From positions 1-64,000 of the forward strand of contig JAISJD010000008.1 of the NCBI GenBank assembly GCA_031261705.1: a DNA stretch of 64,000 nucleotides. Direction: 5' to 3'. The first letter of the stretch is position 1. Each line of letters begins with the position of its first letter. Source of the DNA: Lactobacillales bacterium (GTDB lineage Bacteria > Bacillota > Bacilli > Lactobacillales > Streptococcaceae). The position numbers were made by a program, and so were the translations under genes. Below the pieces are notes generated by a model that did not search any database, had not been told where the DNA came from, and saw only the letters and a program-made list of their open reading frames with translations. Positions 20,343 to 57,546 of this stretch are shown here, in pieces.

Positions 20343-20562
20343 AAGTGTATCCCCCCTTTCCTGAATACTACCACAGGAAAATTTTAAACGCATTCATTAT
20401 TGAAAAAATTGATGGATTTTTCATGCCAATAAAAAAACATTTAGGAAATATTTAAAACCTTTCTATGAATTATTACATATAAAAGATAATTCGTTACATG
20501 ATAGATTTTCACTTGGAATTTGTATGTATAATGGAGCTATCCAAGAAAGGAAGAGAGGTTTT

Positions 20563-21261
20563 ATGACAAATTTCAAAGCGCTACTCATTGCTTCACTTAC
20601 TCTGGGAACTTTGTCTGTAGTAAATATTGAAGCACGAGCACAGGAACAAAATGGTCCCGAACAAGCACCAATTTTACGAAGTGATGCAGAAGTTACAACT
20701 CGTTTTACTGGAATGAATGATTCTGATTCCCTCCTTATATTACCCGATGGCGAATTTCTTCATGGTGAAGTCGAAATTTCTACAATAGATGAGCCTGAAA
20801 AAATTCTTGAAAAATACAATAGTAATACTGATCCAAAAGCAAAAACTGTTGCTGAAATAAAAAGAAGTTGGAAAACACAACCAGTAGAATTATTGGATAA
20901 TGTTATTAAAGAGAATGATTTATTGAGAGGTGCTGCCCCCGCTCCTTTATCAGCTTTAAAAACCTTAGTTGGTGGAGAAACTTATTTATCTAATGGTTTT
21001 AGTGGCCGTGGTTGGAGATATGCAGAAAGTTACTATAGACCTGCTACAGGAACAGGAAAATTTTTACGTTGGGAAACAATCAAGGATAGTGGTATAGTCG
21101 GTGACCGTGAAGATGCAAATAAAACTTACCGTACGGGTATTGGGTATGGCTATAAAATATACCCTGGACACCCACAATCAGTCACTGGTATAAATAACAC
21201 TTTGACATATTATACCTATAACCCAATAAAAGGTTCATACTATTCTGTTGCTAACTACTAA
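20563..21261 (+). CDS. Secreted protein of unknown function beside the Agr-like system
   Basis: I do not recognise this 232-residue protein. Residues 1-26 form a good Sec signal peptide ending IEARA. The middle contains a motif (EKILEKYNSNTDPKAKTVAE, about 79-98) that recurs in the next gene's product. The C-terminal 90 residues are rich in Gly, Tyr and Thr (for example SNGFSGRGWRYAESYY). It has no LPxTG motif, lipobox or recognisable enzyme motif, so it is probably released. The ATG at 20563 follows GGAAGAGAGG. A TATAAT lies at about 20526 without a good -35, which suits an activated promoter. Confidence 0.75.
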   Translation: MTNFKALLIASLTLGTLSVVNIEARAQEQNGPEQAPILRSDAEVTTRFTGMNDSDSLLILPDGEFLHGEVEISTIDEPEKILEKYNSNTDPKAKTVAEIKRSWKTQPVELLDNVIKENDLLRGAAPAPLSALKTLVGGETYLSNGFSGRGWRYAESYYRPATGTGKFLRWETIKDSGIVGDREDANKTYRTGIGYGYKIYPGHPQSVTGINNTLTYYTYNPIKGSYYSVANY

Positions 21262-22223: not shown

Positions 22224-22400
22224 GTGAACTACCCCCACTTAGTGAAGACGCTGGCTCTTAACGCTTGAAGTGGGAGCTTCGTGGAAACAGAGCTTACTTG
22301 TTACATCATGCGTTAGCATGATGAACAGCGGTTTCTCTTTTATACCCCACAAGGCTCGTTCCGAACCTATCTATGATAAGACTACGCAATTTGTAACATT
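22224..22400 (-). ncRNA. Presumptive omega RNA (TnpB guide RNA scaffold)
   Basis: In IS200/IS605 elements the transcript covering the end of tnpB and the right end forms the omega RNA that guides TnpB; its guide is the host DNA just outside the element. Here the tnpB 3' end and the 158 bp after it hold several hairpins, ending with the CCCACTT/AAGTGGG stem and GGTAGTTCAC. The extent is inferred from the family, and the 5' end is approximate. Confidence 0.55.
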
Positions 22401-23533
22401 TCGTTCAGTAGACGTAAGCCTTCGGTTTCAATATTGATACTGGCGTTTATATCTCTATCGTGATGAAAGCCACAATTAGGACAATTCCACTCACGAATAC
22501 CAAGTGTTTTCTTGCCTGAGTTATAACCACAATCAGAACAGATTTGACTAGACGGATACCACGTATTGATTTTCACGATAGTTTTTCCATACCAGTCAGC
22601 TTTATATTCTAATTTACTTACAAATTTAGACCAGCTAACATCAGCGATAGATTTCGCTAATTTATGATTGCGTATCATACCTTTGACATTCAGGTTTTCT
22701 AAGCAGATAACATCGTGGTTATTGATGATTTCTGTACTTAGCTTATTCAGAAAGTCATTTCTTTGATTCGATACTTTCTCATGTAATTTAGCAACAATCA
22801 GTTTTTGTTTTTGATAGTTTTTACAATCAACTAATTTGCGTCCTTGTTTCTTAGCAATTTCACTTTTACGTGACAACTTGCGTTGTTCAACAGCCAATTT
22901 CTTAGCTGTCTTAGCAAGAAACTTAGGATTGGCAATCTTAGTACCGTCAGACAAAATAAGGAAATCAGCAATACCTAAGTCACCACCAACTGTTTTACCT
23001 GTTTGCTTTTTAGCTGATACAGTCGTTTTGCAAAGCAAAGAAACATAATACTTGCCCGTTGATGTACGAGTGATTGTAGCTGATTTGATAATGCCTGTTG
23101 GTTGACGGTGTAACTTAATACGAATTGGTGCTTTTATTTTTGGTAACTTCAAGTATTTATTTTCGTAAATTGCTACCGTTCCATTTTGATTGTTCGTAGT
23201 GTAGCTTTGAACTGGATTTTTACGACTTTTCCATTTTGGAAATCCAACGGATTTATCACGGAAGAAATTCTTGTATGCTTTATCTAAATTCATTTGTGCG
23301 TTCGCCAAAGCTAAACTATCGACTTCTTTAAGAAACGGAAAGTCTTTCTTATATTGAGCAGGTGTTGGATATTTCATCTTTTCGCCAGTAATTTTAGACT
23401 CTTCGTATGATTTCATACGGTCATCTAACAGGAGATTATGGACTTTACGCACACAACCGAACGATTTAGCGAAAAATGTTTCCTGCTCATCATTCGGATA
23501 AATACGATATTTGAACGCTTTTAAGATTTCCAT
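22382..23533 (-). CDS. tnpB: TnpB RNA-guided nuclease of the IS200/IS605 element
   Basis: TnpB is a compact RNA-guided DNA endonuclease, the ancestor of Cas12, that cuts the empty donor site and helps retain the element. The 383-residue protein has an N-terminal OrfB HTH region and a split RuvC nuclease with Asp185 (GGDLGIAD), Glu279 (CLENLN) and Asp361 (DRDINAS). A zinc ribbon of Cys332, Cys335, Cys351 and Cys354 lies between. All key residues are intact and the length is normal, so it is probably active. AAAGGTAGG precedes the ATG, and its start overlaps the end of tnpA. Confidence 0.93.
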
Positions 23534-23954
23534 ATCTAACGCCTACCTTTCTAATTATTTTTTGTCCTTGTGACTGAATATACTTCTTAATGACTTCGAT
23601 TGGAGCACCACCTGTTGTAAGTAAGCAAGATGATTTAGACCAAAACATTTCTTTCCAAAGTTGTTTCTTTACTTGTGGATAGTCTTTTTTGACCAACCTA
23701 GAACTGACTGATTTATAGGAATTGATGAATTTGGTTATTTCCGTATTTGGGTATGCTTTGAACATAACGTGAATATGGTCTTTGTCGTGCTTCCACTCAA
23801 CAACCGTAATATTATAGTTCAATCCAATACGTTCAAAATGCGAACGTAAGTAATCTGAAATTTCATCATCTAGTACCGCTCTACGATATTTCGTTACGAG
23901 AACAAGATGATAATACAACAAGAATACTGAATGATTATTGCTATCTAACTTCAT
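23490..23954 (-). CDS. tnpA: IS200-type Y1 HUH transposase TnpA
   Basis: TnpA catalyses single-strand excision and insertion of the element. The 154-residue protein has the HUH metal-binding pair His60 and His62 (DKDHIHVMF) and the catalytic Tyr125 ([10 protein letters not shown]), the usual size and arrangement. I use the ATG at 23954 (MKLDSN) because AAAGGTGG lies eight bases upstream; the frame opens at a GTG at 23966. It overlaps tnpB by 44 bp in another frame, a known arrangement in this family. Confidence 0.93.
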
Positions 23955-24120
23955 TGATACAACCACCTTTATATTTCTAAATACATTATTGGTATAATCG
24001 CAATAAAGCTAGATATTATCGGGCTTTGAACTGCCCGAAGGAAGTCTCTATCCCGAACGGCATTCATCACCCACCTACTTCGTTGAGGTGGACGACTTCT
24101 GCCTAATTTAAGTTAAAAGA

Positions 24121-47837: not shown

Positions 47838-47867
47838 ATTTCAATCCACGCACTCATTAAATGCGAC
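47838..47867 (-). repeat. Degenerate CRISPR repeat beyond the distal end of the array
   Basis: A 30-base copy of the repeat keeps the ATTTCAATCCACGCAC end and the ATGCGAC end but has a shorter, altered middle. It lies 146 bp beyond the last perfect repeat, at the leader-distal end. Confidence 0.8.
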
Positions 47868-48013
47868 AACTAATTATACCCTAAAAATACAAAATTTAAA
47901 AGTTTCTTTTAGTCGTACTCATATATTAGAATTCAATTATATGTTGTTGTAAAGGATAAAGATTTTTCCAGAGTATAACAGTTTCTGATGATACATTGCA
48001 AGCCAACACATTG

Positions 48014-49611
48014 ATTTCAATCCACGCACCCCATACAGAGTGCGACACTATTGAAATGGATTTAAATAATGCACTGGATATTTCAATCCACGCACCCCAT
48101 ACAGAGTGCGACGCATCGTGTTGTCTCTGCCAAAACCCTCATCACTGCATTTCAATCCACGCACCCCATACAGAGTGCGACTGTTAGATTCCATGGTACC
48201 AGCGACGTGTTTATTTATTTCAATCCACGCGCCCCATACAGAGTGCGACTATACGCTGATTTTATGGGACGATGCGACAGCTATTTCAATCCACGCACCC
48301 CATACAGAGTGCGACCCAAATTACAAGAACATCTCAACCTATCCCATCGTTATTTCAATCCACGCACCCCATACAGAGTGCGACTCAATTGTACTTGTCA
48401 TACCCTTATACATGTTCTTATTTCAATCCACGCACCCCATACAGAGTGCGACGCTATCCTCTCAATCGTCAATAGTAAAAACTCTATCTATTTCAATCCA
48501 CGCACCCCATACAGAGTGCGACGATTGAGAAATACAAGTTTTGAAGCTCGTCAGGCAGATTTCAATCCACGCACCCCATACAGAGTGCGACCGATTTTGC
48601 GGTAGAGATTGGAAAAATTCTTTCTATTTCAATCCACGCACCCCATACAGAGTGCGACGAAGCATTACTTGAAAAAGCTCAACCGTGCGAATGGATTTCA
48701 ATCCACGCACCCCATACAGAGTGCGACACGATTAGTCCGTTGTTCATGACAATTCGTAGATTCATTTCAATCCACGCACCCCATACAGAGTGCGACCAGA
48801 CTAGACGCTGTTAGAATGTTTGGTCGGTCGAATTTCAATCCACGCACCCCATACAGAGTGCGACTGACGTCCTCATGCGGTTCTTTTTCAAACCGGTTAT
48901 TTCAATCCACGCACCCCATACAGAGTGCGACTGACGTCCTCATGCGGTTCTTTTTCAAACCGGTTATTTCAATCCACGCACCCCATACAGAGTGCGACTT
49001 AACGCATCGACGGCTGTTGTTACTTGAGGCAATTATTTCAATCCACGCACCCCATACAGAGTGCGACGCTTGCGGATAAACTCTTTTTAATTCTGATTTT
49101 GTATTTCAATCCACGCACCCCATACAGAGTGCGACATATTGATATCAAATAAAATGGTGGTGATATTATATATTTCAATCCACGCACCCCATACAGAGTG
49201 CGACTCAGCCAAACAAAAAAGACTATTATTTTTTAAAAATTTCAATCCACGCACCCCATACAGAGTGCGACCGCTAAGTGGGGTAGTTCACGGAGATCGT
49301 AAAATTATTTCAATCCACGCACCCCATACAGAGTGCGACCGTTATGCAGATTCTTAAACAATTTCACAAAATCAATTTCAATCCACGCACCCCATACAGA
49401 GTGCGACGGAACTTTTACGTTATCAGGAGAATGGGAGGAAAAGATTTCAATCCACGCACCCCATACAGAGTGCGACTTACAAAAACGCTTGACACATTTG
49501 GAGATAAAGTTATTTCAATCCACGCACCCCATACAGAGTGCGACCAAACGCTCGTTTCAAATAAAATTTACCGTATATATTTCAATCCACGCACCCCATA
49601 CAGAGTGCGAC
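48014..49611 (-). CRISPR. Type I-C CRISPR array, 24 repeats and 23 spacers
   Basis: The 33-base repeat (reading from GTCGCACTC to GATTGAAAT on the transcribed minus strand) recurs 24 times with spacers of 33-37 bases. All repeats are identical by eye, except the copy at 48217-48249, which has one A-to-G change. The sequence is typical of type I-C, agreeing with the cas genes. The leader lies at the cas2 side (49612 onward), so the newest spacers are near 49.5 kb. Spacers at 48865-48898 and 48932-48965 are identical. The spacer at 49272-49306 begins with the end sequence of an IS200/IS605-type element. Several overlapping open frames across the array are translation artefacts of the repeat. 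Confidence 0.98.
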
Positions 49612-49785
49612 CGCAAGATATGCTACTACATATCCGCTTACAATCTAAATATTGTGTTTTCCATTAAAATTTAAAATAAAAATTCAACAATAATTAGTTA
49701 TTTCCTTTATTTTTTTCTAAAAAATAGTGCGAACAACACGGTTATTCCATGTGCACTTGCTATTCGCACTAATCAATATTTTCTT
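49612..49785 (-). promoter_or_regulatory. CRISPR leader
   Basis: The 174 bp between the cas2 stop and the first repeat are AT-rich and non-coding, as expected of a leader carrying the pre-crRNA promoter and adaptation signals. AATAGTGCGAACAACACGG and GTGCACTTGCTATTCGCACT (about 49726-49770) can form a GTGCGAA/TTCGCAC hairpin. Confidence 0.65.
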
Positions 49786-50076
49786 TCATAGAATCAATGT
49801 ATCCGTTACATCAAAACTTGTATCTACACCATAATACTCTATTTTATTTTTATAGTGATTTCCTAATCGATAAAAACGTAAACTGTCCGAATTATTATCA
49901 ATAATTTGAAGCATTTTTTCTTTCACTTCTCGAAATTTTGCCTCATCAATGTGACATTCAAACACTGAATTTTGTACTCTTTGCCCATAATTTACACATT
50001 CTTTAGCAATTTTTCTAAGTCGGCTTCGACCTTCTTTTGTTTCAGTATTTACGTCATAACATATTAACACTAACAT
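49786..50076 (-). CDS. cas2: CRISPR-associated endoribonuclease/adaptation protein Cas2
   Basis: The 96-residue protein has the ferredoxin-like start MLVLICYDVNTETKEG with the conserved Asp8, and forms the core of the Cas1-Cas2 integration complex. The length is normal for type I-C. It follows cas1 by 7 bp and is the last cas gene before the leader. Confidence 0.95.
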   Translation of the reverse strand: MLVLICYDVNTETKEGRSRLRKIAKECVNYGQRVQNSVFECHIDEAKFREVKEKMLQIIDNNSDSLRFYRLGNHYKNKIEYYGVDTSFDVTDTLIL

Positions 50077-50083
50077 TTTTAAC

Positions 50084-51121
50084 CTACTTCCATAAAAATG
50101 GTGGGTACTCCTCTAAATCTCCTCTAAGATGTCTGGCTAAAAGCAAACTCTGTACATATGGTACTAATCCCCAAGAAATTTTTTCTTTTAAAAATGGATG
50201 AGTGAGTTCTTCTTGTTTCTTTTTCTGCCAAGCTGATATTATTTTTTTACGTGTTTCATCTTTCATTAGAATCGCACCATTATCTTGTTTAACAAAATCC
50301 GAAGCACAAACTTGCTTGTTATTAATCATTGTTATAACAAATCTATCAGCTAAAGGTGCTCTAAGCTCCTCCATTAAATCCAATGCTAAAGACCTTCTGC
50401 CTGGTCTATCTTTATGCATAAAACCTACAAATGGGTCTAAGCCAACGCTGGATAATGCTGAAGCAACATCGTTCGATAAAATTGTATAAATGAACGATAA
50501 CATAGCATTTACATTATCAAGTGGAGGTCTTTTCGTACGCCCTTTAAAATAAAAGTCATGCTTATTACTTAAAATCAACTCATCAAAAACCTCAAAATAC
50601 TGGGAAGCAACTTTTCCCTCTATCCCTCTTAATGTATCTAATTCCACATTTTCGGTAGAGTAAAGAAATTGAATGCTCTCCTTTATTAATTGAGATTTCT
50701 TTTTTAAGTTTTCTACATCTACTCTTAAAGGATAATCTCTACAAGTCCGCTCAATAACAAAACGACTATTATAAAATTTACCAACCAACATATTTTTCGC
50801 AATTTTTGAGCATTGTTCTTCATTTTCAGAAAGAATAAATTGTTTTTTTCTAAGATAAACACTTCCCGTTTCTTCTCCCACAACATTTGCCAAAAAGCGA
50901 CCATTTGGCGTAGCAAAAGTTAATGAAATTCCTCGCTTTGCACAAGCACCCATTAAAGCGGGACTTGCTCCTAAATAACTAAAGGAAACAATGCTTTCTA
51001 AGTTATGAAGTGGCACACGTGTCTTAAATTCTTCTTCTTGTTTAACAATAATATTTTCCCCGTCTAAAGATAGATAGGTTTTAGGGTTCACGATATATAA
51101 CGTATTCAAAAGTTTTCTCAA
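50084..51121 (-). CDS. cas1: CRISPR integrase Cas1
   Basis: Cas1 is the metal-dependent integrase that inserts new spacers. The 345-residue type I-C form has the catalytic Glu in RGIEGKVAS, His in GFMHKDRPGR and Asp in SLALDLMEELR. Its start overlaps the cas4 stop (ATGA), and it precedes cas2 by 7 bp. All active-site residues are present, and the array contains many spacers, so adaptation was probably functional. Confidence 0.96.
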   Translation of the reverse strand: MRKLLNTLYIVNPKTYLSLDGENIIVKQEEEFKTRVPLHNLESIVSFSYLGASPALMGACAKRGISLTFATPNGRFLANVVGEETGSVYLRKKQFILSENEEQCSKIAKNMLVGKFYNSRFVIERTCRDYPLRVDVENLKKKSQLIKESIQFLYSTENVELDTLRGIEGKVASQYFEVFDELILSNKHDFYFKGRTKRPPLDNVNAMLSFIYTILSNDVASALSSVGLDPFVGFMHKDRPGRRSLALDLMEELRAPLADRFVITMINNKQVCASDFVKQDNGAILMKDETRKKIISAWQKKKQEELTHPFLKEKISWGLVPYVQSLLLARHLRGDLEEYPPFLWK

Positions 51122-51780
51122 TCGTCCACCAAACTTTCTCTAATATACTCACTAACAGAATTTGCACTGGGCATTTTAGGTAAACAAATATTTTGAAGAG
51201 AACAGGACTGACAAGATTTCCTCCATTTGACACGTGGGGTATATCCACGATTGTAATATTCATTCATCTCACAAAGCATGGAAAGAACTTCTTCTCTTAG
51301 TTCATCCGTCAATTTCACAACTTCTCTTCTTCTTGGCTCTCCATAGTAAATCGCCGCTTCTTTGATTTTGTCACACAACAACATTTCTTCTAGGCAGATG
51401 GCTTGCCCACAAAGTTGCAAACGATCACAATCATTTACTTTTGATTTCCCTCGTTTATACTCTACTGGGTAGGGGCTCCATAATCCTCTATGCCCAGCAA
51501 TATTCACTCCGTTATTATCTTTATAAAATTCTACTACATCGCATTTTCCTACAACGCTTAAATTATGCGAGATAATATTCATCTCATGAGTAATAATTCT
51601 GTCTTTTCGCTTTTCAATTTTTAATGGATTATGGGCATTTTTATGCATAATCTGACCGTCAACCGTCAATAAATTTTCTTCCCATTGATTTTCAATATGA
51701 ATGAGCGCCCATTGACGCTTGCAAAAAGAAAAATGTTGAATCCCAGAAAGCATTAGATAATCTTCCACTAGCTTTTCCAT
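51118..51780 (-). CDS. cas4: CRISPR-associated exonuclease Cas4
   Basis: Cas4 trims prespacers and helps choose those with the right PAM and orientation. The 220-residue protein has the four iron-sulfur Cys residues (one in HFSFCKRQW near residue 20 and three in CQSCSLQNIC near 193-202) and the RecB-like nuclease motif (GKCDVVEF, PVEYKRGK). It lies 4 bp after cas7 and overlaps cas1 by 4 bases. Presence of cas4 next to cas1 is typical of type I-C. Confidence 0.95.
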   Translation of the reverse strand: MEKLVEDYLMLSGIQHFSFCKRQWALIHIENQWEENLLTVDGQIMHKNAHNPLKIEKRKDRIITHEMNIISHNLSVVGKCDVVEFYKDNNGVNIAGHRGLWSPYPVEYKRGKSKVNDCDRLQLCGQAICLEEMLLCDKIKEAAIYYGEPRRREVVKLTDELREEVLSMLCEMNEYYNRGYTPRVKWRKSCQSCSLQNICLPKMPSANSVSEYIRESLVDD

Positions 51781-51784
51781 AGAC

Positions 51785-52612
51785 CTATTTAATACATTCT
51801 TCGTATTTCAAACCTTCTAATTCCTTAATTGTATAAACGCCGTCAGGTTCAACAGTTAAACTACCATGAACTTTAGCACTTGAATATTGTCCAGCCGCTG
51901 AATCATGCTCCCACCAAATCACTTGTTCTACCCACATACTCCCAGCGGGTCTGGCACTACTTTCATCGTTTTCAAATAATGTTGACAGTGATTTCTTAAT
52001 AAGTACTGCATCTTCGTTAGAAAAGTCAGTTTTTGAAGCTAACTGTGTATTAATCGAACCATAAGTAACATAAAATCCTTTATCTACACGATGTTTCATC
52101 CCCATAGTATCAGAAGCTTTTCTGCCATCTTCCGTTTCTTCCCCGTTCACACTCTTAGTAATCTGAATACTTTCAATATCTATTGGTTCAATCGAAAAAG
52201 CACTTTGAACCGACACAGGTCCACGAACACCTATTGAAATCCCTTTGCTTTCTTTTGAACTAAAAGCAAATACTTGTCCAAACGAACGAACATCTAACCA
52301 ATTCTCACAAAGTTTCTTGCTTAATAAAACTTCATCACCCTTTACTCCTTTATCAAGAGAACTGATAAATTGTTTATATCTACCAGATAAACTGTTTTGT
52401 CCATCGTCGCTTCGGTCATTACTTTGCACAAAAATTGCTTGACCGAGATCTTGAAGTCTATTTCTGATTTTACGCTTGATTGCAACATCTGAAATCTCTC
52501 CTAAACCATCATAATTTTGGCGAGGACGATTTCCATTTAAAGGGTCTCCATTAGGATTGGCATTCTTTACACCAATAATTACCGCAAAATCAATTTTATT
52601 TGTTAAACTCAT
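51785..52612 (-). CDS. cas7: Type I-C Cascade backbone protein Cas7
   Basis: Cas7 (Csd2) subunits coat the crRNA and form the backbone of the type I-C interference complex. The 275-residue protein has the RRM-type start IDFAVIIGVKNANPNGDP, with the Asn-Pro-Asn-Gly-Asp signature of the family, and the later RGPVSVQSAF segment. Its start overlaps the cas8c stop (ATGA), so the two are translated together. Confidence 0.95.
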   Translation of the reverse strand: MSLTNKIDFAVIIGVKNANPNGDPLNGNRPRQNYDGLGEISDVAIKRKIRNRLQDLGQAIFVQSNDRSDDGQNSLSGRYKQFISSLDKGVKGDEVLLSKKLCENWLDVRSFGQVFAFSSKESKGISIGVRGPVSVQSAFSIEPIDIESIQITKSVNGEETEDGRKASDTMGMKHRVDKGFYVTYGSINTQLASKTDFSNEDAVLIKKSLSTLFENDESSARPAGSMWVEQVIWWEHDSAAGQYSSAKVHGSLTVEPDGVYTIKELEGLKYEECIK

Positions 52613-54441
52613 TTTTCTTCCTCCACTTGTGCTTTATTTTTTGATAATTTTTTTACTTCTTCTTTAATCCACATCTTTTCACACGAGTATCCTAGTAAAT
52701 AAGTTCCATCTAAGGCTTCATTTTTCTTAAATTCATCAACACTAGGAAACATATTTTTTATTTCTTCCATCTCCGCATAAGCAATATTAGTGCTTTCTTG
52801 CCCTTTTAATCTTTGAGTATAAGGAACTAAAGCCTCTTCAATAATTTGCCACGTTTTGAATGGTTTTCGAGAAAAAGCATTCATATATCTCATCGCAATT
52901 GTCGAGCGTTTAATCCCCGCCTTGTAATTAATATAACTTTCAAACCTATCTGCTGCTCCCAAAAGACGCCCATATAAATAAGCTCTTTCTGTATTGTCTC
53001 TTTCTAAACTCAATCCATACACCTCTTTCTCATATTTTCTTACTAACGCGCAAGTTACATTAACAAGCTCGTCAAAATTGCCTTCATAAGCTTGTGGTGC
53101 AGAGGCTCTTCTGACAGCAGAATGAACATAATCTCTCGGAATAGCCTCCCCATCAAAAATACAATGAATTAGTCGTTCTCTTGCATTTTTTTTCAGCTTT
53201 TCGTAACCCTCATCATTTTCTCCTTTAGGCTTTCCATAAACTGCTTGAATAATACTATCTACACTTGGTGTTTTAATATAGATATGATCATCATGTTTTT
53301 CATCCGTATAAGTAAAATTGAATTTACAAGTTCCATGCCAATCAGCGATTTTTTCTAAATAATCCTCGTTATCTAGTTCTTGATAATATTTCACAGAAAG
53401 TCGTCCAGTCGTTGCAGCATCTAAAATCACAATTGCCGTCTTTTTATGCTGGGTTAAAGCTTTAGATTCTTTGCCTAACAAAATAGCTTTCTTTAATGCT
53501 TCGGCAAAATCCTTCCCCGTTTCCACGCTTGCAATTTTATCTTCCGACGAATTTTCTTGTAAGGCACTCAATAACTCTAACAAATTTTTGCTATCCTTTA
53601 ATGGATTCACAATTTTCATTTCGTTTTTATTTTGTTCAATTTCATACGTGATGATTACTTGTTTGCCACAAGTAATGCCTCTATCTCGAATTAAAAAGCG
53701 TAGAAACTGATGGGCTTTTTGACTACTATCATACCCAATAGATAGCGCTTCCTCTGGCTTTGCAAACATCCCTCTATAAGTATAATTTGAACTATCATTA
53801 GCAGAAATTAACTTAGCATTTCCACTACCATTTGATATTTTTTTCGGATGTATTTTCGCAGTAGTTTGTATCTCACCCGTGATAAAATCTAAACGATTTC
53901 CTTCCTGTTTCTTAGACAGATAGTAGCTATGCCAAGCTTGGAACATCTCTTTATTTTTCCAGGTTTTCGTCTGATTCTCACCGGGAATTTGAACTTCAAA
54001 TAAAATATTCGTTTTTCCTTTTAGATTGATGTTACTTAAATCCTCTTTCAGATTTCTTTTATACATGTAGGAATAAATAGCTTTAATTTGTGTCGTGGCA
54101 AAGTCACTTTCCGCAAATTCTTTTAGCTGTTCAATATACGCCTCAAACTTTTTTCCACTCCCTGAAAGGTAATCATATTGGTCATAAATTGGGTGTGGGC
54201 AAATGCCACTTGAACGCCCCATACTTTCTTCTGTCACGGGAAAAACAATATTCGTAAGTGACTCATCTTTTTTCTTTTTGTCTATTTTACCAACTTCTAA
54301 AAAGTTTCCTTCTCCGTCAATTTTAACAATTAAAATGTCTTCCCTATTATTTGAAATAGAGGTAGTTGATAACGGAAACTCTTTTGCCAACTCCTTAGCA
54401 TTGGCATCGTAACTTTTAACTAAACTTTGCCAAAAGCTCAT
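52609..54441 (-). CDS. cas8c: Type I-C Cascade large subunit Cas8c
   Basis: Cas8c (Csd1) is the large subunit that recognises the PAM and recruits Cas3. In type I-C an internal start often yields a small Cas11-like subunit from the C-terminal part. The 610-residue protein fits family length and has the FWQSLVKSYD start and the AYLYGRLLGAADRFES-type C-terminal helix region. It overlaps cas5 and cas7 by 4 bases each. An internal start for Cas11c in the last 120-130 codons is expected from the family; I have not identified it. Confidence 0.94.
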   Translation of the reverse strand: MSFWQSLVKSYDANAKELAKEFPLSTTSISNNREDILIVKIDGEGNFLEVGKIDKKKKDESLTNIVFPVTEESMGRSSGICPHPIYDQYDYLSGSGKKFEAYIEQLKEFAESDFATTQIKAIYSYMYKRNLKEDLSNINLKGKTNILFEVQIPGENQTKTWKNKEMFQAWHSYYLSKKQEGNRLDFITGEIQTTAKIHPKKISNGSGNAKLISANDSSNYTYRGMFAKPEEALSIGYDSSQKAHQFLRFLIRDRGITCGKQVIITYEIEQNKNEMKIVNPLKDSKNLLELLSALQENSSEDKIASVETGKDFAEALKKAILLGKESKALTQHKKTAIVILDAATTGRLSVKYYQELDNEDYLEKIADWHGTCKFNFTYTDEKHDDHIYIKTPSVDSIIQAVYGKPKGENDEGYEKLKKNARERLIHCIFDGEAIPRDYVHSAVRRASAPQAYEGNFDELVNVTCALVRKYEKEVYGLSLERDNTERAYLYGRLLGAADRFESYINYKAGIKRSTIAMRYMNAFSRKPFKTWQIIEEALVPYTQRLKGQESTNIAYAEMEEIKNMFPSVDEFKKNEALDGTYLLGYSCEKMWIKEEVKKLSKNKAQVEEEK

Positions 54442-55169
54442 CCAAGATCACCTACTTTCAGATTATCATCAGTAAGAGAAGAGAAATTTCTATTGTCAAT
54501 AAATTCTTTTGCTTTCTGTTTACGAATAAACTTCACTATGGAACAGGCAGTAGGTGGTATAAACTCAATCACCCCATCTATCATTTTTGGTTGCCAAAAC
54601 CGAGTTTCTAGCTTCTCTTCACCCGTCTCATCTGGATAGTTAAACCCATGAAACATGGTACCAAACGAAAGCTCCCCATAATTATCGTAAAAGCCGTCTC
54701 CTCTTCCAAACTTACATGGAACGACATAGCCTTGACATTCCCTAGTGCCGAGGAAAATATCTCTACGTCCTCCTGTTTCAATCTTTCTTTTTGCCATCTG
54801 ATGATGTTTATTTTCATTTCTATCATGCGCTAATTGAGGACGGTTTTCGTTGAACTCAAAATGAGCTAAAACCTGATAACGTACATCACTCAAATAAGTA
54901 TAATAAGATAGGTCATTCCCCCTGCTCATTTTGATCGGTCGGATGCCTTTTGCTTGAGTGACTATCTTATTCATTACTCGAATTTTGTCAATATACCAAA
55001 TAATCGTTGGCTTCCAATAAACGCTTTCTAAAATTCCTTTGATTGCCTGATAAGTCGGTACCTGATAACTCATTTTTTCTCCACCAACACGAGTCACGGG
55101 GTCTGAAAATAAAGCGTATTTCCCGTAAACTTCAAATTCAACACTATTTCGTTTTTTTAAATCATTCAT
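54438..55169 (-). CDS. cas5c: Type I-C crRNA endonuclease and Cascade subunit Cas5c
   Basis: In type I-C, which lacks Cas6, Cas5c cuts the pre-crRNA and holds the 5' handle. The 243-residue protein begins MNDLKKRNSVEFEVYGKYAL; I choose this start at 55169 because GGAGAGAGG lies just upstream. The ENKHHQM segment (about residue 115) contains the Lys-His pair that matches the catalytic positions of studied Cas5c enzymes; the RDIFLGTRECQGYV stretch is also typical. It lies 28 bp after cas3 and overlaps cas8c. Confidence 0.94.
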   Translation of the reverse strand: MNDLKKRNSVEFEVYGKYALFSDPVTRVGGEKMSYQVPTYQAIKGILESVYWKPTIIWYIDKIRVMNKIVTQAKGIRPIKMSRGNDLSYYTYLSDVRYQVLAHFEFNENRPQLAHDRNENKHHQMAKRKIETGGRRDIFLGTRECQGYVVPCKFGRGDGFYDNYGELSFGTMFHGFNYPDETGEEKLETRFWQPKMIDGVIEFIPPTACSIVKFIRKQKAKEFIDNRNFSSLTDDNLKVGDLG

Positions 55170-55197
55170 TTCCTCTCTCCTTTCCGTTTTAATACAT

Positions 55198-57546
55198 TCA
55201 ATTTTCAACATTCTTATCGGAAATTACTCCTAATTCATCATTATAATTTGATTTATCTATGGAATAAAATCCCTCATTCACAACCCAAATTGCATGCTCT
55301 TTCTCTAATTTTTTTAAAATACATTCATGTAGTGAAACACTATACCTCTGTAATTTTCGTAAAACAGCTTTCTTTTTTGAAAAGTCGTTAGCAGATAATT
55401 TTTCATAATTATAGATTAACTTTTCTGCCTCTTCATTATAAGGAACTACCACTGAAAATTGATTCTTATCAATGACAAAAAAATTGTCCGAGGCCTCTTT
55501 AAACGCAGAAGGTAAACCTTCAAATTTTTGTCTCGTTATATCTTTATAAGCTTTACACTTTTCCGGATTATCAGAAAGTAATCTATAAATCGTTTTTCCT
55601 TTATCTGTACCAGGCAATAGATAATCTAGCTCGTTGTCCTCCTCATGACCGAAAAAATAATAATTGTAATACTGCTCTAAGCATTCCTTTGATAAAAAGT
55701 CTTTCCCTTTCTTTTCCCGAAAAATCCTTGAACAACCGTCCTTTCCTGACTCTATTTCAGGTAAACGAGATAAGTTTTCACCTTTCATAGTAATGACAAA
55801 AACCTCTCTTGTTCCCTCAAATTCTCCACTACGATTACAACGTCCAGCCGCTTGAACGATGTTGTCTAATCCCGCTTTTGCCCGAATCACACATTCAAAG
55901 GATACATCCACCCCAGCTTCGACTAGTTGAGTTGAAATCAAAACAATCGGAGTGTCACTTTCTTTAAGATTTTTCTTCACTTGTTCCAACACATTCATTC
56001 TGTGCGCTGGACACAGTGATGTACTCAAAAAGAAAACTTTACTAGAAGTATACTTTTGGGTCTCCTTAAATACTGATTCAGCCTGTGTCTTTGTGTTAAA
56101 TATAGCTAAAGTGTTTTTCTTTTCACCCACTTGTTTTTCGATAAATTCAGCAAGTGACGCAGGTGTGTAAGGAATAGCTGTCTGGTCAACAATTTCAGTT
56201 CTTCTAAAAATTTCCTGTTCTTCCTCAGATAGCTCAACCAAATCGGGATATTCAGATAACACGATTGGACGTTTCACTTTATCTAAAATAGGCTGTGTTG
56301 CAGTACAAAGTAAAATAGTTGAATTTGCTATCTGATTCAAGAAGTTAATTGCTAAATTAAATAAATGTGTACATTTCACTGGTAGAGCTTGAACCTCGTC
56401 AAAAATCAGCACACTATTTGCCATATTATGAAATTTTCGTAAATCTGTTCCTTTATTTGAATAAATCGTTTCTAAAAATTGAACCATTGTCGTTAGGATA
56501 ATCGGAGCATCCCATGAAGAAGTTAAAAGTCGATAATTATCATTATCTTTTTTATTTTCTGGCCGCAATACATTCGAGTGATGTTCTAAAATATAATCTT
56601 CTTGATAATCCAACGCTTCCTTTATACTTTTAGCCGTCTGGTCCAATACAGAAAGATAAGGAACAATATAGATAATATGGTCTTTCTCCATCCTCTTAGC
56701 ATGATTTATTGCAAAACGTAAGCTTGACAACGTTTTTCCACCACCAGTCGGAACACTTAACTGATAAATACCTGTTGAAGTTGTCTTTCCTTTTTCAAAG
56801 CATTGATTAGATATTTTTTTCCGCATACGATCTAATTTGTTCTCAGTAGTATATTTTGACAAATAATTCTCCAATTTTGGAATCAAAGTGTTCCAGATTC
56901 TTTTTGGTGTTTGATATTTCCGCTCACGATTCACTCCAAATAAATAAGCACAAGTTCTATCAGCATCAACTAAACCAGAATAAATAGCTTTAGTAATAAG
57001 GTTTAAGTAAAAAAAGAAATCTTTTTGCAACTTTTTATCCCGATAAATTTTCAAAAAAAATTCACCAAATTCCTTCTCGCTTATTTCAAGAAGTTCATTA
57101 AAGTCTACCTCTGAAAATTCGTTTAAAAAACGTTCCTTAGCTATCTCGTATTCAAGTTTTTTCTCATTATTAAAAAGTTTAGAATACATCGGACGTTCTC
57201 CATCGCTATCCGCTCCATCAAGTAACCCTCCATGATGAGCAAATATGGTTTGAGCAATTATTTCTTTCAATAAAACACATGCATTCTGTTCTAATATAAA
57301 TTTTGCACCTTGCTGACTATGAATTGCTCCATTATCTAAATCTTCTCGGATTCTTTCCTGAAAAATATCAGAGTATTTTCCGAAATCGTGCAGCAAACCT
57401 ACAAGAAAACCAATCGTAGGAAGTCCAAATTTTTCAGAACATTTTCCGCTATATTCTGCCACTTCTCGCAAATGATTACGAATGAGTTCTGTTTTCTCAA
57501 CATCATCTGATAATTTTAGTTTTCTGGAAATAAACTCTCGTTCCAT
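55198..57546 (-). CDS. cas3: CRISPR-associated nuclease-helicase Cas3
   Basis: Cas3 unwinds and degrades DNA bound by Cascade. The 782-residue protein has an N-terminal HD nuclease (LLHDFGKYS near 52, FAHHGG near 98) fused to an SF2 helicase with Walker A PTGGGKT, a DEVQ box (LIFDEVQALP), SAT-like LCTATQP and the QAAGRCNRSGE motif. All key parts are present. It is the first gene of the cas operon, with a predicted promoter at 57626-57655. AAAGAGGAACT precedes the start. Confidence 0.96.
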   Translation of the reverse strand: MEREFISRKLKLSDDVEKTELIRNHLREVAEYSGKCSEKFGLPTIGFLVGLLHDFGKYSDIFQERIREDLDNGAIHSQQGAKFILEQNACVLLKEIIAQTIFAHHGGLLDGADSDGERPMYSKLFNNEKKLEYEIAKERFLNEFSEVDFNELLEISEKEFGEFFLKIYRDKKLQKDFFFYLNLITKAIYSGLVDADRTCAYLFGVNRERKYQTPKRIWNTLIPKLENYLSKYTTENKLDRMRKKISNQCFEKGKTTSTGIYQLSVPTGGGKTLSSLRFAINHAKRMEKDHIIYIVPYLSVLDQTAKSIKEALDYQEDYILEHHSNVLRPENKKDNDNYRLLTSSWDAPIILTTMVQFLETIYSNKGTDLRKFHNMANSVLIFDEVQALPVKCTHLFNLAINFLNQIANSTILLCTATQPILDKVKRPIVLSEYPDLVELSEEEQEIFRRTEIVDQTAIPYTPASLAEFIEKQVGEKKNTLAIFNTKTQAESVFKETQKYTSSKVFFLSTSLCPAHRMNVLEQVKKNLKESDTPIVLISTQLVEAGVDVSFECVIRAKAGLDNIVQAAGRCNRSGEFEGTREVFVITMKGENLSRLPEIESGKDGCSRIFREKKGKDFLSKECLEQYYNYYFFGHEEDNELDYLLPGTDKGKTIYRLLSDNPEKCKAYKDITRQKFEGLPSAFKEASDNFFVIDKNQFSVVVPYNEEAEKLIYNYEKLSANDFSKKKAVLRKLQRYSVSLHECILKKLEKEHAIWVVNEGFYSIDKSNYNDELGVISDKNVEN

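Follow-up and report, generated by a model that had tools for sequence, protein, structure and literature searches.

It is common for CRISPR spacers to match mobile elements. In ISDra2, the TnpB nuclease is guided by an RNA that comprises the right end and about 16 nt of the adjoining DNA (PMC8612924). ISEfa4, an IS200/IS605 element of Enterococcus faecium, has the gene order tnpA-tnpB, a hairpin in its right end, a terminus at TTCAC and an insertion point 3' of TTTAAC, and all of these traits are shared by an element that we describe here from a Lactobacillales bacterium. The stretch of DNA analysed, 64,000 nucleotides long and referred to below as the window, also holds a type I-C CRISPR array, one spacer of which probably spans the junction between an ISEfa4-like right end and its target DNA.

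The CRISPR-Cas locus and the resident ISEfa4-like element

The main features of the two loci are collected in Table 1. The CRISPR-Cas locus is complete. Its cas operon has no separate cas6, in keeping with the gene content of type I-C, and the products matched the subtype-specific PADLOC models Cas1c, Cas2c, Cas3c, Cas4c, Cas5c, Cas7c and Cas8c. On the minus strand the repeat reads GTCGCAC...ATTGAAAT, and a decayed 25th repeat is found at 47838-47870, at the end of the array away from cas2. Because the type I-C repeat ends in ATTGAAAT, cas2 and an AT-rich stretch adjoin the array at 49611, and the decayed repeat lies opposite, we infer that the minus strand is the crRNA strand.

Table 1. Coordinates of the CRISPR-Cas and IS features within the window
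Feature	Position	Strand	Basis
Type I-C CRISPR array	48014..49611	-	24 good 33-nt repeats, 23 spacers of 33-37 nt
Presumed leader, AT-rich	49612..49785	-	position between array and cas2, composition
cas3-cas5c-cas8c-cas7c-cas4-cas1-cas2, subtype I-C	49786..57546	-	Pfam and PADLOC
Probable junction-type spacer	49272..49306	-	crRNA sense AATTTTACGATCTCC-GTGAACTACCCCACTTAGCG; parsed array, repeat/leader orientation
IS right-end-like part of spacer, CGCTAAGTGGGGTAGTTCAC	49272..49291	+	19/19 with E. faecium plasmid remnant
Non-IS part of spacer, GGAGATCGTAAAATT	49292..49306	+	begins exactly after TTCAC; PAM-proximal, crRNA seed side
ISEfa4-like IS200/IS605 element	22224..24108	-	sequence and ISEfa4-family end comparison
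tnpA, Y1 transposase	23490..23966	-	PF01797, E 4.4e-39
tnpB, RNA-guided nuclease	22382..23533	-	PF07282, PF01385, PF12323
Right end / omega RNA 3' region	22224..22380	-	hairpin GCTCCCACTT...AAGTGGGGGT, then AGTTCAC

Some parts of the array show features of their own. The spacers at 48865-48898 and 48932-48965 are adjacent and identical (TGACGTCCTCATGCGGTTCTTTTTCAAACCGGTT), representing a duplicated repeat-spacer unit, such that 22 of the 23 spacers are different. At the trailer end the decayed repeat is followed by 143 bp without repeats (47838-48013 in all), and these sequences are possibly remnants of older array units. The leader-proximal spacer (49545-49578) agrees at 17 of 18 bases with positions 21116-21133 (CAAATAAAA[T/C]TTACCGTA) in the gene at 20524-21261; this similarity is near chance in shuffles, and the spacer is a candidate for self-targeting that is worth a check.

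The resident IS is a complete element that encodes both a Y1 TnpA and a TnpB. Its hairpin-bearing right end terminates with TTCAC at position 22224, and its left end lies immediately internal to TTTAAC, at about 24108-24113. The terminal hairpin has a predicted free energy of -18.2 kcal/mol. The element is related to those of the ISEfa4 type, which carry this annotation in E. faecium plasmids. Its right end is ~67% identical to that of ISEfa4 (114/169 aligned columns), and its TnpB is about 70% identical to that of ISEfa4 and 71% identical to ISEfa4-type TnpB from viral contigs. Contig C19 of the bacterium's own genome carries two more IS200-like tnpA genes, one of them with an in-frame TAA, as well as a second, different TnpB-type gene; within the stretch examined, the TAGTTCAC end was absent at these genes.

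To place the boundary of such elements we compared 18 insertions in other loci, comprising 15 with 15 different flanks and three in other genomes of the order, two of which are IS copies within one genome. In all 18 the IS ends at TTCAC and the sequences diverge from the next base onward, and TTTAAC precedes the left end wherever that end was readable. Because these insertions were compared among themselves, the boundary at TTCAC is established independently of the spacer. The earlier note had likewise placed the end of the element at TTCAC and had named related elements with another terminus as evidence against its reading; the insertions compared here agree with it throughout. More distant relatives from the same order (three loci, TnpB about 50-56% identical) can end in TTCAA, and by sequence comparison the TTCAC end characterises the ISEfa4-like branch, together with some neighbouring ones, rather than the whole family. 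ISEfa4-like elements or related TnpB genes are also present in enterococcal phages and viral contigs. In Enterococcus phage EFP01 (Herelleviridae; locus L007, 1628-2770), for example, there is an ISEfa4-like tnpB with a right end, and neither an annotated tnpA nor a recognisable left end.

Agreement of one spacer with IS right ends

The spacer at issue, the fifth counted from the leader, is 35 nt long, is flanked by two perfect 33-nt repeats, and reads CGCTAAGTGGGGTAGTTCAC followed directly by GGAGATCGTAAAATT on the plus strand, at the coordinates and with the sequence that had been reported for it previously. The earlier note had drawn attention to a gapped match with the resident IS, and this match is real: CTAAGT-GGGGTAGTTCAC aligns with CTAAGTGGGGGTAGTTCAC at 22224-22242 (minus strand) across 18 bases, interrupted by a single additional G, and the agreement stops after TTCAC. 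Within the window alone the match scores 15.5, a value reached in 2 of 400 dinucleotide shuffles, with about 0.1 such matches expected over the 23 spacers. Two further spacers reach a score of 15 with unrelated DNA of the window. This comparison is marginally above chance and weak alone, and we base no firm claim on it.

A clearer signal emerged with 12 distinct right ends of IS elements as the reference. Here the score of the spacer was 19, which not one of 630,821 shuffled spacers attained, and none of the other spacers of the array scored above 9. The set includes a decayed right end from E. faecium that was found via the spacer itself; with this remnant omitted the score was 16.5, which 3 of the 630,821 shuffles reached.

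This remnant is a decayed ISEfa4-type right end, identical to that of ISEfa4 at 130 of 156 aligned columns, and it occurs in 9 E. faecium plasmids. Its last 19 bases are exactly bases 2-20 of the spacer, and the match stops after TTCAC, at the last base of the IS; base 1 of the spacer is C, versus A in ISEfa4. The terminal stretch of Gs numbers four in both the spacer and the decayed E. faecium copy and five in the resident copy, so the existence of an ISEfa4-type right end with four Gs resolves the one-base discrepancy left by the earlier note. One part of the spacer is accordingly an IS terminus through its exact last base, and the remaining 15 bases, GGAGATCGTAAAATT, differ from every IS flank seen.

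Taken as a blind match to a plasmid database, the 19-mer has an E-value of about 1, and on our reading of the sequences the weight of the match comes from its location on an IS right end and not from that value. The plasmid collection contains 1267 places resembling such a right end among some 14.6 billion strand positions, from which we estimate that a random match would land on one with a probability on the order of 1 in 10 million. Nor is the 19-mer a common word, because in a sample of 395 genomes from this order it was absent, at up to one mismatch, everywhere except in the spacer itself. Viral contigs contained no exact copy.

In an E. faecium plasmid (locus L002, 3868-4019), a decayed ISEfa4-type right end adjoins a gene for a MurR/RpiR regulator and overlaps its stop-codon end. 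No tnpB is annotated upstream within the stretch examined.

Origin of the spacer

Collectively, these data suggest that the spacer is probably an IS-junction spacer. We consider it likely, at a probability of roughly 0.85, that the type I-C Cas4-Cas1-Cas2 proteins captured 35 bp across the right boundary of an ISEfa4-like insertion, which lends support to the earlier proposal that Cas1-Cas2 had taken up a junction between an IS200/IS605 element and its target. The fragment would have straddled the insertion boundary, 20 bp of it coming from the IS right end up to TTCAC and the other 15 bp from the target. The most likely donor is a phage or plasmid not yet sequenced. A TTC PAM is expected beside the protospacer, where GAA after GGAGATCGTAAAATT would correspond to TTC on the other strand. 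In the resulting crRNA the seed would correspond to target DNA and the 3' part to the IS, and the crRNA would thereby act on molecules with that particular insertion while leaving the resident IS copy alone. The resident junction shares only 6 of 15 flank bases with the spacer and has one additional G in the IS part, and for this reason the resident copy should be safe from the crRNA; seed mismatches protect from interference in type I systems.

We searched for the donor and for its empty site. The full spacer had no full-length match in phages, plasmids or viral contigs, and in 335 genomes of the family (up to three mismatches) it matched only itself. Phages, plasmids and viral contigs, as well as genome contigs and the bacterium's own genome, yielded neither a source of GGAGATCGTAAAATT nor the uninterrupted site, TTTAAC followed by GGAGATCGTAAAATT; likewise no donor, from a pool that is poorly sampled, showed GGAGATCGTAAAATT beside an ISEfa4-like end or free of the insertion. 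Two candidates were rejected. The first, from an Oscillospiraceae MAG, lies in a sulfatase-like gene; its matching bases are preceded by TCTTCAC with no IS end, and the number of such matches is at chance level. The second is a viral contig that contains the flank plus GAA; the preceding bases there are AAATA, not TTTAAC, and this match too was judged to be chance. When all 22 different spacers were compared with phages, only four weak matches were obtained, to records of two enterobacterial phages and judged to be chance, such that the phage collection holds a credible protospacer for no spacer of the array. The missing protospacer of this one spacer therefore says little, and the pattern suggests that the mobile elements of this host are simply not sampled in the collection searched.

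An ordinary phage or plasmid gene could also have supplied the spacer, in which case its resemblance to an IS right end would be fortuitous. Two frames of the spacer, FYDLRELPHLA (minus) and LSGVVHGDRKI (plus), are open, making a coding origin possible in principle; the window-only similarity is near chance; and 20 nt of the spacer (TTCACGGAGATCGTAAAATT) occur in the Oscillospiraceae gene mentioned above, in frame FYDLRE. However, 257 billion bases should contain about one 20-nt match by chance, and degenerate searches of viral contigs for the two peptides found none. A full-length protospacer in a phage gene with no IS, the case that the earlier note had set against its own reading, was searched for and not found. 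A coding origin would explain none of the agreement with the IS, whereas the complete absence of shuffles reaching the spacer's score and the position of the exact 19-mer, on an ISEfa4-type right end and stopping at its last base, both argue against coincidence, which we regard as unlikely.

Two further explanations concern where an IS junction might have come from. Acquisition from an IS copy in the host's own chromosome, since lost or absent from the assembly, is a sub-case of the junction reading, and we likewise consider it unlikely. The assembly is 78.7% complete and harbours an intact relative of the IS, yet the right end (up to two mismatches) and the flank occur nowhere else in 2.13 Mb of the genome, and a self-targeting spacer beside active cas genes would face counter-selection. 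IS200/IS605 elements also make circular intermediates with joined ends (PMC8612924), and an excised circle would present the right end joined to the left end. Known left ends of the family begin AGAATTAGGCAGAAG or TTAAATTAGGCAGAAG, unlike GGAGATCGTAAAATT, and the circle is single-stranded DNA, leaving this source barely credible.

If capture across an insertion boundary is correct, the array records that this lineage encountered a foreign replicon in which an ISEfa4-type element occupied one particular site. The immunity it confers would be directed against an insertion allele rather than against the IS as such. The donor would be recognisable by TTTAAC joined to GGAGATCGTAAAATT in its empty form and by ...GCTAAGTGGGGTAGTTCAC joined to GGAGATCGTAAAATT in its occupied form.

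Comparison with known RNA-guided systems and IS elements

The spacer spans the same boundary as the TnpB guide RNA of ISDra2, with 15 nt of flank, and by analogy with that system it is predicted to copy 20 nt of omega RNA scaffold and 15 nt of guide. The earlier suggestion that the spacer links two RNA-guided systems holds literally, as the spacer spans this predicted scaffold-guide boundary, and would be speculative as a statement about function. The crRNA would be complementary to the omega RNA scaffold of this IS family at its 3' end and could in principle pair with the omega RNA of the resident TnpB and damp it, an accidental cross-talk between CRISPR and a transposon nuclease that we consider very improbable; the predicted duplex energy (-29.5 kcal/mol, versus -15.3 +/- 3.2 for shuffled spacers) reflects the complementarity itself. 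In contrast to ISDra2, whose target motif is TTGAT, the motif of the resident IS family appears from its insertion sites to be TTTAAC.

With respect to CRISPR adaptation, this is an ordinary 35-nt spacer in an ordinary type I-C array, comparable to other spacers against mobile elements, from which it differs in straddling an IS boundary rather than lying inside one element. A limited literature search revealed no direct precedent for a spacer spanning an IS junction. We interpret it as a rare though ordinary outcome of the normal process by which CRISPR memory forms, and as a single case of a known process: a curiosity that involves no new mechanism and leaves the understanding of either CRISPR or TnpB and its IS elements unchanged.
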